Notes: generated by a model from the sequence alone, not told the origin. A stretch of 64,000 bases of DNA from Gemmatimonadaceae bacterium (GCA_030647905.1 JAUSJA010000025.1:124001-188000), one strand, 5' to 3'; positions 52,596 to 59,231 are shown, counted from the stretch's first letter. Translations and numbers: made by a program.

Positions 52596-55355
52596 TCATG
52601 TGCCGCTTTGCGCAGACACCGCACCATGCATCAGGGCTTCCTGCGCACCCAGCGTGCCGCCCCGGCGCTGCACATAGGCGCCATCGGCGCCGAGCTCCCA
52701 GGCCGTCGCATCGTTGATGTAAAGATCGAGAATCCGATCGAGCTCCTCCTGTTGCTTCGTCTCCACGACCCGAACGAGAAGCTCCACTCGCCGGCGAAGA
52801 TTGCGGTGCCGAAGGTCGGCTGACCCCACGAAGTAGATCGGCGAGCCGCCGTTCTCGAATCGGTAGATCCGGGAATGCTCGAGGAAACGGCCGACGACCG
52901 ACGACACCCGCACCCGGTCGGATCGCCCCGGTACTCCCGGGCGAAGTGTGCATATCCCGCGGCACGCCAGCTCCACAATGGCACCATCGGCGGACGCGCG
53001 AAGCAATGCGCGCACGACCGCCGCGTCGGACAACCCGTTAAGCTTCGCGGTGATCCTCGCCGGTCTTCCCGCGCGCGCGTGCGCCGCTTCGCGGTCAATC
53101 AGCGCGACGATGCTGTCCGGCATCTGATGCGGCGCCACCAGCGATCCGCGCGACAGGCCCATTGGAGGAAGCGAGCCGCCGGTGAGCGCATTGAACAGAT
53201 CGGCGACGTCCGCCGTCAGCTCGTCGCGCGAGGAGAAAAGACTCAGATCGGTGTACTCCATGCCCGACCGGCTGTTGTAATTGCCGGTACCGACGTGGAC
53301 GTAACTGCGCAGTTTTCCATTCTCGCGCCGCACTACCAGCAGGGCCTTCGCGTGGTTCTTGTATCCCACCAGGCCGGAGATTACATGACCGCCCGCCTTC
53401 TCCAGCTTCCGCGCCCACCGCACGTTGTGACCCTCGTCGAATCTCGCCTTCAGCTCCACGAACGCGACCACCTTCTTGCCATTACGCGCGGCGTCAATCA
53501 GCGCATCCACGACCGGCGATGAATTGCCGATCCGGTAGAGCGTGATCTTGATCGTCGTCACCTCCGGGTCTTCCGACGCCTCGCGGAGGAAGCGAACGAC
53601 GGTACCGTCGAACGAATCGAACGGATGATGGAACAGCATGTCGCTTTCGCGAAGCGCATCGAGCAGCGATTGGCCCTCGGGCAGCGGCTCCGCCGGCTGG
53701 AATGGCGGATAGCGCAGCGTCGGATTGTCGGGAAGCTCGAGGTCAGAGAGGCATCGCAGGTCGAGGAGCCCGTCTATCTCGTGGATGTCGCTGGCATCGA
53801 GCTCGACTGACGCCCCCGGATCCTCCCGGCGCAGGTTGCCGAGCAGAAGATCGCGAACGAATCCGGGCATCTCCCGCTCCACTTCCACGCGCACGGCGGG
53901 ATTGCTCGACCGCCGCTCAGTCGCGTCGGCTACGGCATCTATCAGATCCTCAGCGCTTTCCTCGTCGAGCGAAAGCTCGCCGCCGCGTGTCACACGAAAC
54001 ACGTACACTCCCTCGATGCCGCCCGCGGGATAGAGGAGGTCGATGTTGGAGCGGACAACCTCCTCGATCGCGATGTAGTCGCCGCTGCTCCCCGGCACCG
54101 GCAGGAACCGCGGACTGTCGGCCGGCAGCTCGAGCTCGGCGAGGTGCAGCCGATGCGTGACATTGTCCCGCTGAACGACCGCGAGCGCGAGGGTCAGGTG
54201 CGGCAGGTGCGGCAGCGGATGGCCGGGACTCAGTGTCATGGCCATCGGCGTCAGGCCAGGATGGATCTCCTCGCGGCATTCCTCGCGCAGCGAGGCGCGC
54301 TGCGCGGCATCGAGAGACTTCCAGCGCACCACCCGTACTCCGAACGGCTCGAGCTCCCGCAGGCAGGCCTCGGCACACCGCGCCTGACGTTCCGCGAGGT
54401 TCGACATGCGCTCGGCAATGAGCCGAAGCTGCTCCGTCCGGCTCAAGCCGTCGTCGCATTGCTCCTCGCTCTGCTCGCGGGCCGCTCTCCGTAATCCGGC
54501 GATGCGGATCATGAAGAACTCGTCAATGTTGGAGCTCACGATGGACAGGAAGCGGAGCCGCTCACGCAGTGGCGTGTCGGCGCTCTCGGCGAGCGCGAGC
54601 ACACGGCCCTGGAAATCGAGCAGGCCAATCTCCGGATTCAGGAACTCCACCGGGTTGCCCGGACTTCGCGGGCCCGCGTGGACGCCCGACGCTTCCTCCG
54701 GCGAGCGGTCGTTGTCGTCCACCCCCCCGCCCTGCTTCCATCGCAGCATCAGCTCGGCGCGGTCGCGAGAATCGCCGCTCTCGCGACGGAGCTGCTGCGT
54801 TTGCTCGAGCGCGGTGGCGAGCCGCTCGGTCGTCGCCCCATCGCCGCGTCGCGCGTGCACGCACATCTGATACATCGTACCCGACGCGCCGTTGCGCCGG
54901 ATTACCGACCGATCGTAGTGGATCTCCACGCGTGGCCGGCGCAGCCAGTCGAAATCGGCGATGCGCGTGATGCGCTCTGTCTCGATGTCGAGGCGCACGA
55001 CGAGCAGCGCCGGATCTATGAGCGCGCTGAGTCTTCGGCCGGCCGCCGTGGCCTCGGCAACGGCACCTCCGGCTTCCGCCGAACGTACCGCCGAATCGAA
55101 TCGCACTTCGGAAGGCGATCCCGCGGAGCCGATCCGCACGGAAAGGATTCGCGTGTCATCCGAGCGGAGCCGGAACCGGCAGGTGATGTTGCGCCGGCGA
55201 AGCGTATCGTGCGACGTGTCGAGGTAGAGATCGCGATGCTGCGACCGTCTCGCATCGCCCGCCACCATGCCCAGCGGCAGCGGAGACGCGACGAGCTCGT
55301 CGAGATGGCGAGCCGAGCGGACCTCGTACCGGAAGGTGGGGAGCGGACGCTTCAT
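52596..55355 (-). CDS. ppk1: CYTH-domain/polyphosphate kinase 1 fusion protein
   Basis: The 919-residue protein has a CYTH/triphosphate-tunnel-like domain at residues 8-205 (RYEVRSARHLDE, then HRDLYLDTSHDTLRRRNITC, FRLRSDDTRILSVRI, RVEIHYDRSV). A Pro/Gly-rich linker (206-235) follows, then a full PPK1 (236-905). PPK1 shows EFLNPEIGLLDFQGRVL, SSNIDEFFMIRIAGL, the phosphorylated His in GYKNHAKALLVVRRE (His668), ACRGICTLRPGVPG and VVGRFLEHSRIYRF (His827). PPK1 reversibly makes polyphosphate from ATP. The tunnel domain may bind, gate or cut the chain (inference). It is last in an operon with CotH-like and DUF4956 genes, with 16 bases between. Confidence 0.93.
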   Translation of the reverse strand: MKRPLPTFRYEVRSARHLDELVASPLPLGMVAGDARRSQHRDLYLDTSHDTLRRRNITCRFRLRSDDTRILSVRIGSAGSPSEVRFDSAVRSAEAGGAVAEATAAGRRLSALIDPALLVVRLDIETERITRIADFDWLRRPRVEIHYDRSVIRRNGASGTMYQMCVHARRGDGATTERLATALEQTQQLRRESGDSRDRAELMLRWKQGGGVDDNDRSPEEASGVHAGPRSPGNPVEFLNPEIGLLDFQGRVLALAESADTPLRERLRFLSIVSSNIDEFFMIRIAGLRRAAREQSEEQCDDGLSRTEQLRLIAERMSNLAERQARCAEACLRELEPFGVRVVRWKSLDAAQRASLREECREEIHPGLTPMAMTLSPGHPLPHLPHLTLALAVVQRDNVTHRLHLAELELPADSPRFLPVPGSSGDYIAIEEVVRSNIDLLYPAGGIEGVYVFRVTRGGELSLDEESAEDLIDAVADATERRSSNPAVRVEVEREMPGFVRDLLLGNLRREDPGASVELDASDIHEIDGLLDLRCLSDLELPDNPTLRYPPFQPAEPLPEGQSLLDALRESDMLFHHPFDSFDGTVVRFLREASEDPEVTTIKITLYRIGNSSPVVDALIDAARNGKKVVAFVELKARFDEGHNVRWARKLEKAGGHVISGLVGYKNHAKALLVVRRENGKLRSYVHVGTGNYNSRSGMEYTDLSLFSSRDELTADVADLFNALTGGSLPPMGLSRGSLVAPHQMPDSIVALIDREAAHARAGRPARITAKLNGLSDAAVVRALLRASADGAIVELACRGICTLRPGVPGRSDRVRVSSVVGRFLEHSRIYRFENGGSPIYFVGSADLRHRNLRRRVELLVRVVETKQQEELDRILDLYINDATAWELGADGAYVQRRGGTLGAQEALMHGAVSAQSGT

Positions 55356-55371
55356 GTGAACTGCGGGGAAA

Positions 55372-56502
55372 TCAACTTGTCTTCACGCAGGCTTCAGCGA
55401 TTTCTCGTTTCGCGCGACGGGAATCGTTGACGATGCGGAAAAAATCATCGTAGTACTTGAGCGTCTCCTCGACCGTTTTCTGTTTGATCAGCTTTCCGAT
55501 CGAATCGCGATACAGCCCATAGACGGCGTCCTTCTGTTCGTTGAACTTCGCGATGGCCTTTGCCCATGCCTCCGGTTCGACGCAATAGCCCCTGAAGAGC
55601 CGGTCGCGGACGCGCTGCACCGAGAGCTTCGGGTCAACCGTCGCGTACGGCGCGTTGATCACGCCCGAGAAATCGAAGTCGTAGGGAATCGGAATGATGT
55701 CGCCGGCCGGCTGACTCACGAGCTCGACGTTGTGGAGCCCGGCAATCGAGAAGTCGGTGTTCCCGATGAAGTACTGGAAGATTCCGATGAGCGCGTCGTG
55801 ATAAGGCTCGAGATCGCTGGCCTTCGCGCCCTTGTCCTCGACGCGCGGTCCGCCCATTCTCGCGGCGAGCATCTCCGGCTCCTCGAGAAGAATCGCGGCC
55901 CGCCTGGCGATGACCTTTCCGCTGGCGCTGTCGGTGTACGTAACCTGCAGAAGCCGCGCGCGGTAGCCGAAGGGAGTGAGAAGGTTGTAGATGCGGTAGA
56001 GCTGCAGCTCCTGGATGATGAACTGCTCGTAGTCGTCGGTGTTGCGGCAGTAGTTGACGAGCTTGGGCTTGTCGAGGCCCTGGAACATCGTCCCCTTCGC
56101 GGAGTCGGCCTTGAAGTTGACGCGGAGGGGCGGGAACTCGCAGTTCTTCAGTCTCCATATTCCGCGGGTTCTCAGCTCCGTGGGGAGCGAGACGACTTTC
56201 CCTGATGCGTCGGTGAAGGAGATCCTGGCCGGACGCCACGGAGCCTTGTCGCCCTTGTCGCCGCGGATGCGCTTCACGTTGGTGGTCAGCGTGACCGGCA
56301 GCGGCTCGGCGGCGAAGAAGAATGCCTCCGTTTCTTTCGAGTGCCTGATCGCCTTTTCCACGGCCGCTTTCAGTTGCTCCTCGGTCTTCGGCTCCTTCTT
56401 CTTCGCCTGCGCGACGATCTCTCCGCCCGGCATCGCGAGCGCAAACGTCAGGGCAATCGCTCCCGCAACCGGAGCCCACCTGCCTGCGATCTTCATGTCC
56501 AT
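55372..56502 (-). CDS. Secreted CotH-like protein
   Basis: The 376-residue product has a signal peptide (cleavage near residue 32, GGEIVAQA) and a CotH-like pattern: LRTRGIWRLKNCEFPPLRVN, FQGLDKPKLVNYCRN, LQLYRIYNLLTPFGYRARLL, FQYFIGNTDFSIAGLHN and IPIPYDFDFSGVIN (candidate metal-binding DxD). CotH proteins are atypical protein kinases of spores and envelopes. CotH-like genes also accompany VTC-type polyphosphate polymerases and DUF4956 genes. It lies nine bases after the DUF4956 gene and 16 before ppk1, so it is probably the periplasmic arm of the same system. Family assignment is from pattern only. Confidence 0.65.
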   Translation of the reverse strand: MDMKIAGRWAPVAGAIALTFALAMPGGEIVAQAKKKEPKTEEQLKAAVEKAIRHSKETEAFFFAAEPLPVTLTTNVKRIRGDKGDKAPWRPARISFTDASGKVVSLPTELRTRGIWRLKNCEFPPLRVNFKADSAKGTMFQGLDKPKLVNYCRNTDDYEQFIIQELQLYRIYNLLTPFGYRARLLQVTYTDSASGKVIARRAAILLEEPEMLAARMGGPRVEDKGAKASDLEPYHDALIGIFQYFIGNTDFSIAGLHNVELVSQPAGDIIPIPYDFDFSGVINAPYATVDPKLSVQRVRDRLFRGYCVEPEAWAKAIAKFNEQKDAVYGLYRDSIGKLIKQKTVEETLKYYDDFFRIVNDSRRAKREIAEACVKTS

Positions 56503-56511
56503 GGCTGCCTC

Positions 56512-57543
56512 CTATCTGATCTGCGCGTCAACGAGGGCTGTCCCGCCGGCGGTGTGCGCGAGCGAGAGAATCTCGTCAGGCAGCGTCGCCTTCTTGGGCT
56601 GCACGAAATAATCGATGGTGGCGACCCCCGCATCGTCAGTCTTTGTCGTCCCCGCACGCCACTCCTTTGCGTATTCACCGAGAACGAGCTCGAAGCTTCG
56701 GCGCGTCTGGTCCGGGTCGCGAGTGCGCAGTCGGATACAGATCTCGTGGGGCGTTCCGCTGTCCGTCTTGGATCCGTCGTCGTGCGCCCGCTTGAGAGCG
56801 CGCTGTGCCAGCCCTTCGAGCTGTTCACGGCTCATGTTCCGAAGCACCTCGTTGTCTATCTGCGCGACGAAGGTGCCGGTCCTTGCGAGCTGCCTGGCGC
56901 GCTTCAGGCGACGTGCGGCGATGCTTCCCTCGAGCTCGACCGGGGAGTTGCCGAAGTCAGTGTACCAGAGCGCGAGCACCGTCACGTTGAAGAGGAGCGA
57001 CAGTGAGAGCGCGACGGGTATGTCCACGGCCGCCGCGAGCCCGACGCCGGTGGCGAGGAACACGTATACCGCGTCCTTGCTGTCCTCGAGCGTATTCCGG
57101 AAGCGCACGGCCGCAACGATCCCGGCAAGACTGAATGCGAGCGCCAGGCTGTGTTTCACGAGCACCACGACGCCAGAGACCACGAGTGGGAGGATTATCA
57201 GCATCTGAACGACGGACTGCTGATAACCGCGCTTCGCCCTCGTAAGCTGATAGACCCACGCCACCGGCAGGGATAGCAGGACGGCGCCAGCCATCGCCGC
57301 GATGAAAGTGACCGTCAGGCCGAGCTGATCGGGAGCAACCGCAAGCGGTGCGCGATTCGCAGCGACCAGAGCCGGACCCACTCCGAGGATCGGCTCGATG
57401 GCGTAGCTGGCCAGGCTCGGAAAGATATTCGCCTCGCGCCGCACGAGAGCGCCCACCGCGATCAGAACGACGTAATAGACGGCGACCTTCACCAGAACAC
57501 GTGTCGCCGGAGACGAAAAAATTCCCGGTCTCCTATCGGCCAT
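56512..57543 (-). CDS. DUF4956-type membrane protein
   Basis: The 343-residue protein has about six membrane segments, and the DUF4956 signature ALAFSLAGIVAAVRFRNTLE followed by DAVYVFLATGVGLAAAVDI. A soluble C-terminal domain of about 140 residues (from ARRLKRARQLARTGTFVAQI) follows. DUF4956 proteins occur next to VTC/CYTH-type polyphosphate polymerases and CotH-like proteins. As first gene of the three-gene operon it may anchor the fused CYTH-PPK1 at the inner membrane or pass polyphosphate outward (inference). A CAGGAG ribosome-binding site precedes the ATG. Confidence 0.85.
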   Translation of the reverse strand: MADRRPGIFSSPATRVLVKVAVYYVVLIAVGALVRREANIFPSLASYAIEPILGVGPALVAANRAPLAVAPDQLGLTVTFIAAMAGAVLLSLPVAWVYQLTRAKRGYQQSVVQMLIILPLVVSGVVVLVKHSLALAFSLAGIVAAVRFRNTLEDSKDAVYVFLATGVGLAAAVDIPVALSLSLLFNVTVLALWYTDFGNSPVELEGSIAARRLKRARQLARTGTFVAQIDNEVLRNMSREQLEGLAQRALKRAHDDGSKTDSGTPHEICIRLRTRDPDQTRRSFELVLGEYAKEWRAGTTKTDDAGVATIDYFVQPKKATLPDEILSLAHTAGGTALVDAQIR

Positions 57544-57638
57544 CCTGAATGGCTCCTGGAAAGGTTACGTAATAATCGTGTCCGTTTGCGCCCCACGCCA
57601 TAGTTGCCGTGGTTCCGCCCCGCTCCCAGATTCTCCGA

Positions 57639-59231
57639 ATGCGCAGACTAGCCCAGGGATTGCTCGGAGTGGTGCTGGCCGCGACGTGCGCCCTGGCGCA
57701 GTCGCCGGCTCCTCAGGGGAGGGCGGCGGCGGCCCGTCCGACGCTCGTGCTGATGATCACCATAGACGGATTTCGCGCCGGCAATCTCGAGCGCTTCGGA
57801 CCTCAGCTCAGCGGCGGCCTCGCGAGGCTGATGAGTGGCGGAGCCTGGTTCACCAACGCTCACCAGGACTACGCAATAACCGAGACCGCGCCGGGGCACG
57901 CCAGCCTGTTGTCGGGACGGTTCCCCAGATCCACTGGCATCGCAGCGAATCGGGTCGGGGTCGCCGACCCCGCCGCACCACTTCTCGGCTTTTCCGGCGG
58001 CCTGGGCGCTTCCCCCGCGAGATTTCAGGGGACTGAGCTCTTCGATTGGCTGCACAGCGCCGATGCCCGCTCGCGCGCCCTGTCCGTGTCGAGCAAGGAC
58101 CGCGGTGCGATACTGCCCATCGGCCGCGCGAAGCAGCAGGTGTACTGGTATCCCGGCGATGGTGATTTCACCACCAGCAGCTACTACGCCGATTCCCTTC
58201 CCGCCTGGGTGAACAGATTCAACGAACGGATGCTTCCGCAAACCTACGCGAGCAAGAACTGGATGCCTCTACTGCCCGACTCGGCGTATCACGAGCGGGA
58301 CAGCGTGAGCATCGAGGGCGGAGGCAATGACTTCGTATTTCCGCATCCGATACCCGCCGACCCGCAGAGTGCTGCAAACTGGGTGCGGGCGACCCCCTTC
58401 ATTGACGAGCTCACCGTCGCCTTCGCTCTCGACGGAGTGAACGCGCTGAATCTTGGAGCGGGTCCCCAAACGGATCTGCTGGCGGTGTCGCTCTCCGCCA
58501 CCGACGCGGTCAACCACCGCCTCGGCCCCGACTCCAGGGAGGCCCACGATCAGGTGCTACGCAACGACCGGGTCATCGGGATTCTGCTCGACTCACTGTT
58601 CCGGATGCGCAACCCGTCCCGTGTGGTAGTCGTGCTCAGCGCGGACCACGGATTCACGTCCATCCCCGAGCTGGTTCCCGCCGACGTGAAGCCTCATCCC
58701 ACCCGCGCTTCGCTCGACTTTGCGCTCGAGATCGCCCGCAACAAGATGCGAGAGATGAAAGTTGATACGGGTGCGATAGACGTTGATCAGCAGATCGTGC
58801 TTCTGGATCGTGAAGCGTTCAAGCGCGCGCGAGTGGATCCGGACCCGGTGATCAAGGCGTTTGAGGCGGCCGCCTTGCAGACTCCAGGCATCAAGCGCAT
58901 AGACCGCTTCCGCGATCTCATCGGCGCCGACACGCTGCGCGATCCGATCGCGCGCAGATGGAGTCACCAGTTCCCGGCGGGCAGCAACGTCGAGCTGGTG
59001 GCAACGCTTACGCCGGGCAGCCTCTGGGGACCGGCGCCCCTCGCGTCGCACGGCTCGCCATACGACATAGACAGCCACGTACCCATCATTTTTTACGGAA
59101 CCGGCATAAGACCGGGCCGCTATGGGGAGTTCGCGCGGACGGTGGACATTGCACCGACTCTGGCGCGCATCACCGGCGTAACGCCTTCCGAGAAGCTGGA
59201 CGGAGCTCCGCTCACGCGCGCGCTGAAGTAG
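57639..59231 (+). CDS. PafA-like alkaline phosphatase family protein
   Basis: From the ATG at 57639 the 530-residue product has a signal peptide (RRLAQGLLGVVLAATCALAQ) and an alkaline phosphatase core with LMITIDGFRAGNLERF (metal Asp), the Thr nucleophile in AITETAPGHASLLSGRFP, SSKDRGAILPIGR (Lys/Arg pair seen in PafA), SLSATDAVNHRLGPDSREA, LSADHGFTSIPE and a late metal His in LASHGSPYDIDSHVP. It would release phosphate from monoesters in the periplasm. It diverges from the polyphosphate operon with under 100 bases between starts, which suggests shared phosphate-related control. Confidence 0.9.
   Translation: MRRLAQGLLGVVLAATCALAQSPAPQGRAAAARPTLVLMITIDGFRAGNLERFGPQLSGGLARLMSGGAWFTNAHQDYAITETAPGHASLLSGRFPRSTGIAANRVGVADPAAPLLGFSGGLGASPARFQGTELFDWLHSADARSRALSVSSKDRGAILPIGRAKQQVYWYPGDGDFTTSSYYADSLPAWVNRFNERMLPQTYASKNWMPLLPDSAYHERDSVSIEGGGNDFVFPHPIPADPQSAANWVRATPFIDELTVAFALDGVNALNLGAGPQTDLLAVSLSATDAVNHRLGPDSREAHDQVLRNDRVIGILLDSLFRMRNPSRVVVVLSADHGFTSIPELVPADVKPHPTRASLDFALEIARNKMREMKVDTGAIDVDQQIVLLDREAFKRARVDPDPVIKAFEAAALQTPGIKRIDRFRDLIGADTLRDPIARRWSHQFPAGSNVELVATLTPGSLWGPAPLASHGSPYDIDSHVPIIFYGTGIRPGRYGEFARTVDIAPTLARITGVTPSEKLDGAPLTRALK

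Follow-up and report, generated by a model that had tools for sequence, protein, structure and literature searches.

A module of three genes lies on the minus strand of a 64,000-nucleotide stretch of DNA (hereafter the window) from the genome of Gemmatimonadaceae bacterium GCA_030647905.1 (JAUSJA010000025.1:124001-188000). The genes encode a DUF4956 membrane protein, a CotH-related protein predicted to be secreted, and a 919-residue protein in which a CYTH-type triphosphate-tunnel domain is fused to PPK1. An initial interpretation made from the DNA alone (the sequence-only reading) had described three tightly spaced genes on this strand, and the open reading frames are indeed present, separated by 9 bp (DUF4956/CotH-like) and 16 bp (CotH-like/fusion). 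The features, with the evidence for each, are as follows:

56512..57543, minus strand: DUF4956 membrane protein, 343 aa (Pfam PF16316, hydropathy, conservation over 38 relatives)
55372..56502, minus strand: CotH-like protein, 376 aa (PF08757 family match in homologues, invariant residues, N-terminal sequence)
52596..55355, minus strand: CYTH-PPK1 fusion, 919 aa (single open frame)
54729..55355, minus strand: CYTH-type triphosphate-tunnel domain, fusion residues 1-209 (model, PDB fold matches, Pfam CYTH, residue table)
54657..54728, minus strand: short linker, fusion residues 210-233 (position between the tunnel domain and PPK1)
52596..54656, minus strand: complete PPK1 part, residues 234-919 plus stop codon (Pfam, NCBIfam, motif positions)
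57609..59231, plus strand: type I phosphodiesterase/nucleotide pyrophosphatase gene (Pfam PF01663; tblastn in relatives)

We regard the architecture, fold, and genomic linkage of this module as close to certain. An assembly error or frameshift was ruled out as the source of the fusion, as the same single open frame occurs in dozens of species. We also considered an internal start that would yield a separate PPK1; the candidate ATG, at residue 203, lacks an obvious ribosome-binding site and does not recur in the nearest relatives. The divergent type I phosphodiesterase gene, which may be an accessory of the module, adjoins it in three relatives of the same genus as well (L033, L034, and L042).

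The PPK1 part is complete, as had been claimed. All four Pfam PPK1 domains are found in order across fusion residues 238-898, and the NCBIfam PPK1 match extends over residues 234-913 (E 3e-218). The active-site histidines, His668 and His827, are located in the expected PPK1 motifs (codons 53352-53354 and 52875-52877). This part has no membrane segment of its own and is predicted to be a polyphosphate synthase that uses ATP. The same genome encodes a second, unfused PPK1 of 711 residues (L001, contig C27:161402-164884), directly after a 345-residue gene resembling a PiT-type phosphate permease. This canonical PPK1 shares the PPK1 domains and both histidine motifs with the fusion but is only ~42% identical to it, lacks the N-terminal extension, and belongs to a separate clade; the fusion, unlike it, is not adjoined by a phosphate-permease-like gene.

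Folding the N-terminus from a single sequence gave a pLDDT of only 37.8, and a 78-row alignment of homologues was needed to obtain an AlphaFold model with a pLDDT of 93.7 and a pTM of 0.87. Foldseek and VIA placed the modeled domain among triphosphate-tunnel proteins, with YgiF as the best structural match (Z 15.9, 196 residues, rmsd 4.8), followed by AtTTM3 (Z 15.5, 179 residues, rmsd 2.9) and, more weakly, Vtc4 (Z 12.1). YgiF was also found at 3.8e-7 in a profile search of PDB sequences. Pfam CYTH (PF01928) matches 75 of the 78 homologues (best 1.1e-10), with the window's own N-terminus alone reaching only E 0.2, and the VTC family (PF09359) gave no Pfam match in any of the 78 members. We therefore rejected a VTC-type identity for the domain. 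The tunnel fold anticipated from the DNA is thus borne out, and the contrary outcome that had been named, no such fold in residues 1-205, is contradicted by the structure prediction. The sequence-only reading had further set the domain beside VTC-type enzymes, which holds for the fold but not for the type, as the latter is CYTH.

To examine the chemistry of the tunnel, we mapped the sites of YgiF and AtTTM3 (PMC4641920) onto the 78-member alignment. Arg60, Arg62, Arg128, Arg131, and Arg199 are conserved at 86-100%. The full acidic metal-binding set (ExExK plus the C-terminal ExE) occurs in none of the 78 members, with the first-strand register taken from aligned ranges rather than an inspected superposition, which makes that part less certain. 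An alternative first-strand register, E-x-R-x-D, was dropped, as the structural ranges fitted better with ELR in the place of ELK. Both N-terminal second-metal glutamates survive in a single member and the C-terminal glutamate pair in 12; the first metal-site Glu is present in 62, and the window copy has Gln at this position. Because no member keeps the full set, trimming of polyphosphate by the tunnel, which had been proposed from the DNA, is unsupported. Vtc4p is likewise without the acidic patch, and basic residues there lead the chain away (PMC4641920). Judging from these residues, binding or guiding of polyphosphate (or a nucleotide), and not trimming, is the probable role of the tunnel domain.

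At 67 loci, most of those measured, an extra segment of ~150-190 residues lies between the tunnel domain and PPK1 (e.g., L037:10081-10605 and L038:6566-7072). This segment has no Pfam match, and its best PDB sequence matches are to a Nudix enzyme at an E value of only 0.12; it may be a degenerate Nudix-like domain without the catalytic glutamates. The window fusion is a short form, from a family-level lineage without the middle segment. In a tree of 93 rows, a single clade unites the plain PPK1s, and the fusions occupy the rest; one further row called plain (L044) is truncated at a contig edge and probably represents a fusion. The short forms fall together in one lineage, inside which two tunnel losses are nested (extension absent in G013 and G021). 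In G013 (L034:1622-4855), DUF4956, CotH-like, and PPK1 genes are kept in order while the tunnel domain is lost, and a search of that genome found no tunnel domain elsewhere. With the root assumed to lie on plain PPK1, the simplest reading would be one old fusion event. PPK1 genes in related genomes that are without both the extension and the two neighbours had been named in advance as weighing against the sequence-only reading. This outcome is half borne out: plain PPK1 paralogues without the extension are present in the same genome and in the same genus, but they belong to the separate plain clade.

The DUF4956 assignment of the first gene relies on a Pfam PF16316 match (E 1.6e-9, 38.1 bits versus a cut-off of 30.6). 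Its hydropathy profile displays several hydrophobic segments within residues 12-195, followed by a C-terminal part that is soluble, and a motif, FR-TL-D-KDA, is conserved around residues 148-158 among 38 relatives. The CotH-like protein begins with a sequence resembling a signal peptide. Kinase-like motifs (GNTD, HN, and DFD) are located at residues 247-277 (about 55672-55764), and their residues are invariant or nearly so across the CotH-like family. The window protein itself has no Pfam CotH match; of 30 homologues, 9 match PF08757, the best at 1.4e-7, and a PDB sequence search returned no match. From these features we infer a secreted, kinase-like protein.

Loci without a CotH-like gene often hold an Omp85-type barrel protein instead (L077:8184-11774, L128:9524-13336, and L110:6482-9094). 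The N-terminal part of these Omp85-kinase-like proteins bears GDWDRH-DQW and PIPRDRDQAF, matches no Pfam family, and possibly forms a kinase-like site around these two motifs. We did not retain homology between the CotH-like and Omp85-kinase-like proteins, as the motifs align with a weak profile score (E 0.13, one pair). At L193:9218-14498, a tandem pair of Omp85-kinase-like genes sits beside DUF4956.

Among 395 sampled genomes of Gemmatimonadota, about 77 carry strong matches to the fusion; the tally at E 0.001 is 94 genomes, but some of these matches are weak and probably represent other CYTH proteins. The named hits are Gemmatimonadota except for one record labelled Acidobacteria (L181); as the contig scan used one short peptide pattern, the lack of further hits elsewhere is no proof of a restriction to the phylum. 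A CotH-like or Omp85-kinase-like gene is near 68 of the 79 fusion loci studied in detail and DUF4956 near 55, so the neighbours reported for the window are kept across relatives. For the 48 loci whose upstream sequence exceeds 6 kb, the corresponding numbers are 43 and 38. We estimated chance proximity of DUF4956 at less than 1-2%, given one to a few such genes per 2-7 Mb genome and less than 20 kb read. Gene order around the fusion varies between loci, which suggests that function links these genes and not just the inheritance of a single fixed block. Elsewhere in the window's family, other genera have DUF4956 and CotH-like genes as a pair with no fusion nearby.

Within the window's genus, the distribution of the module is uneven: the same fusion is present in G015 and G018, the tunnel domain is missing in G013, and many species have plain PPK1 only. 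In another member of the genus (G012, L201:149-9745), DUF4956 and an Omp85-kinase-like gene cluster with a plain PPK1 and Ppx, as well as with a metallophosphoesterase and an SdiA-regulated/phytase-like gene. In genus g10, genes for Ser/Thr protein kinases lie between DUF4956 and the fusion (L040:11115-12623, L084:10061-12529, and L102:6076-8535).

Stand-alone VTC genes (PF09359) were detected in 9 of the 395 genomes of the phylum. All nine have a DUF4956 match beside or near them on the same contig; at one of these loci a clear CotH gene is nearby as well. As these VTC genes also neighbour DUF4956, the fusion fills the slot of the VTC polymerase. The analogy drawn by the sequence-only reading to loci combining VTC, DUF4956, and CotH is thus upheld within the phylum, and it has published precedent: genes for CotH, a poly-phosphate polymerase, and DUF4956 are contiguous in streptococci, clostridia, and bifidobacteria (PMC7112168).

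The explanation we favour, though tentatively and with real reservations, is that the module is driven by PPK1 and brings polyphosphate to the membrane in the manner of VTC. It builds on the observed domain architecture and fold, the missing acidic residues, the conservation, and the genomic linkage. On the cytoplasmic side of the inner membrane, PPK1 would use ATP to build polyphosphate, and the CYTH-type tunnel, devoid of the residues for metal catalysis, would bind the chain, or else a nucleotide or a phosphate end, through its arginines. The tunnel domain may dock the synthase on DUF4956, as the VTC tunnel sits on its membrane part; to our knowledge, DUF4956 is not a relative of Vtc1. The chain would thereby reach, and perhaps cross, the membrane. 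There, a secreted partner resembling a kinase (CotH-like in the window, an outer-membrane barrel protein with a similar motif in relatives) might use it or modify surface components. The gating, export, and outside role for CotH suggested earlier from the DNA could find a place in such a scheme, as could a periplasmic role, and the plain second PPK1 would be left free for cytoplasmic granules. That the fusion and VTC alternate in one DUF4956 slot speaks for membrane delivery. Counting against it, the tunnel is CYTH-like and not VTC-like, G013 is without the tunnel, so the module can at times do without this domain, DUF4956 and CotH also occur as a pair with no fusion nearby, and a membrane segment is absent from the PPK1 part. 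A full synthase-translocase, in which PPK1 synthesizes the chain, the tunnel guides it, and polyphosphate crosses the inner membrane to the secreted or outer-membrane kinase-like protein, is possible but doubtful.

The main rival to membrane delivery is allosteric sensing, which we hold to be conceivable yet somewhat improbable. Here the tunnel would set the activity or direction of PPK1 by binding ATP, tripolyphosphate, or a short chain, with polyphosphate staying cytoplasmic and DUF4956 and the kinase-like protein forming a co-regulated signalling or phosphorylation pathway. Retention of the basic tunnel residues without the acidic patch suits a sensor, the possible Nudix-like domain of most relatives looks like added ligand sensing, and Ser/Thr kinase genes are found at some loci. 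Sensing leaves unexplained, however, both the near-constant company of DUF4956 and envelope kinase-like partners and the sharing of the DUF4956 slot with VTC. These partners would instead be central if PPK1 or its product supplied phosphate, as polyphosphate or regenerated ATP, to a CotH-type kinase that is secreted and modifies proteins of the envelope or the matrix. For CotH of the spore coat, Ser/Thr kinase activity is proven (PMC7821199), and the frequency of kinase-like partners and the conservation of their kinase-like residues fit such surface phosphorylation. The Omp85-linked part aligns weakly to the CotH-like family, and we know of no polyphosphate-dependent CotH activity, so we consider this option unlikely.

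We give still less credence to an active tripolyphosphatase that trims the PPK1 product. The fold is nearest to the tripolyphosphatases YgiF and AtTTM3, and most members keep the first metal-site Glu, but the complete acidic set is absent throughout, the window copy has Gln at that very site, and mutating the equivalent acidic residues impairs both YgiF and AtTTM3 (PMC4641920). Least credible of all is a chance gene neighbourhood with neutral domain accretion and no joint function. The missing extension in G013 and G021 would agree with accretion, but the linkage spans dozens of genomes and several families under changing gene order, and the fusion lineages are deep and well supported.

Bacterial PPK1 is usually viewed as a stand-alone enzyme making cytoplasmic granules, and we know of no established bacterial route that moves polyphosphate across a membrane. 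A conserved PPK1 joined to a degraded tunnel and accompanied by DUF4956 and kinase-like envelope proteins is a candidate bacterial system for coupling polyphosphate to a membrane, and the module offers a clue to the function of DUF4956. The first cultured member of the phylum is described as polyphosphate-accumulating in a title cited in PMC10581226. Our search of the open-access literature found no description of a CYTH-PPK1 fusion. The theme of DUF4956, CotH, and a polymerase is already published; the function of the CYTH-PPK1 variant is what we infer.

Comparison with known systems helps to define this variant. YgiF-type CYTH-CHAD proteins and AtTTM3 are closest to the N-terminal domain in fold and Pfam family, and both are linked to polyphosphate biology, as is the fusion (PMC4641920, PMC6537752). 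They are active tripolyphosphatases, with YgiF carrying CHAD, whereas the fusion is without the acidic set and has PPK1 as its partner domain. The CotH-polymerase-DUF4956 loci (PMC7112168) resemble the present module in that DUF4956 and CotH genes are contiguous with a polyphosphate-making enzyme; there the tunnel-fold enzyme polymerizes, whereas here PPK1 is present, together with a CYTH-type tunnel that has lost the catalytic residues. Yeast VTC couples synthesis to translocation with its tunnel domain over a membrane channel (PMC9911596), and in both systems a tunnel domain is tied to polyphosphate synthesis beside a membrane partner. Vtc4p and the fusion's tunnel domain also have in common the loss of the acidic patch. 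In yeast, however, the tunnel domain is itself the polymerase, whereas the bacterial module carries PPK1 and no SPX domain.
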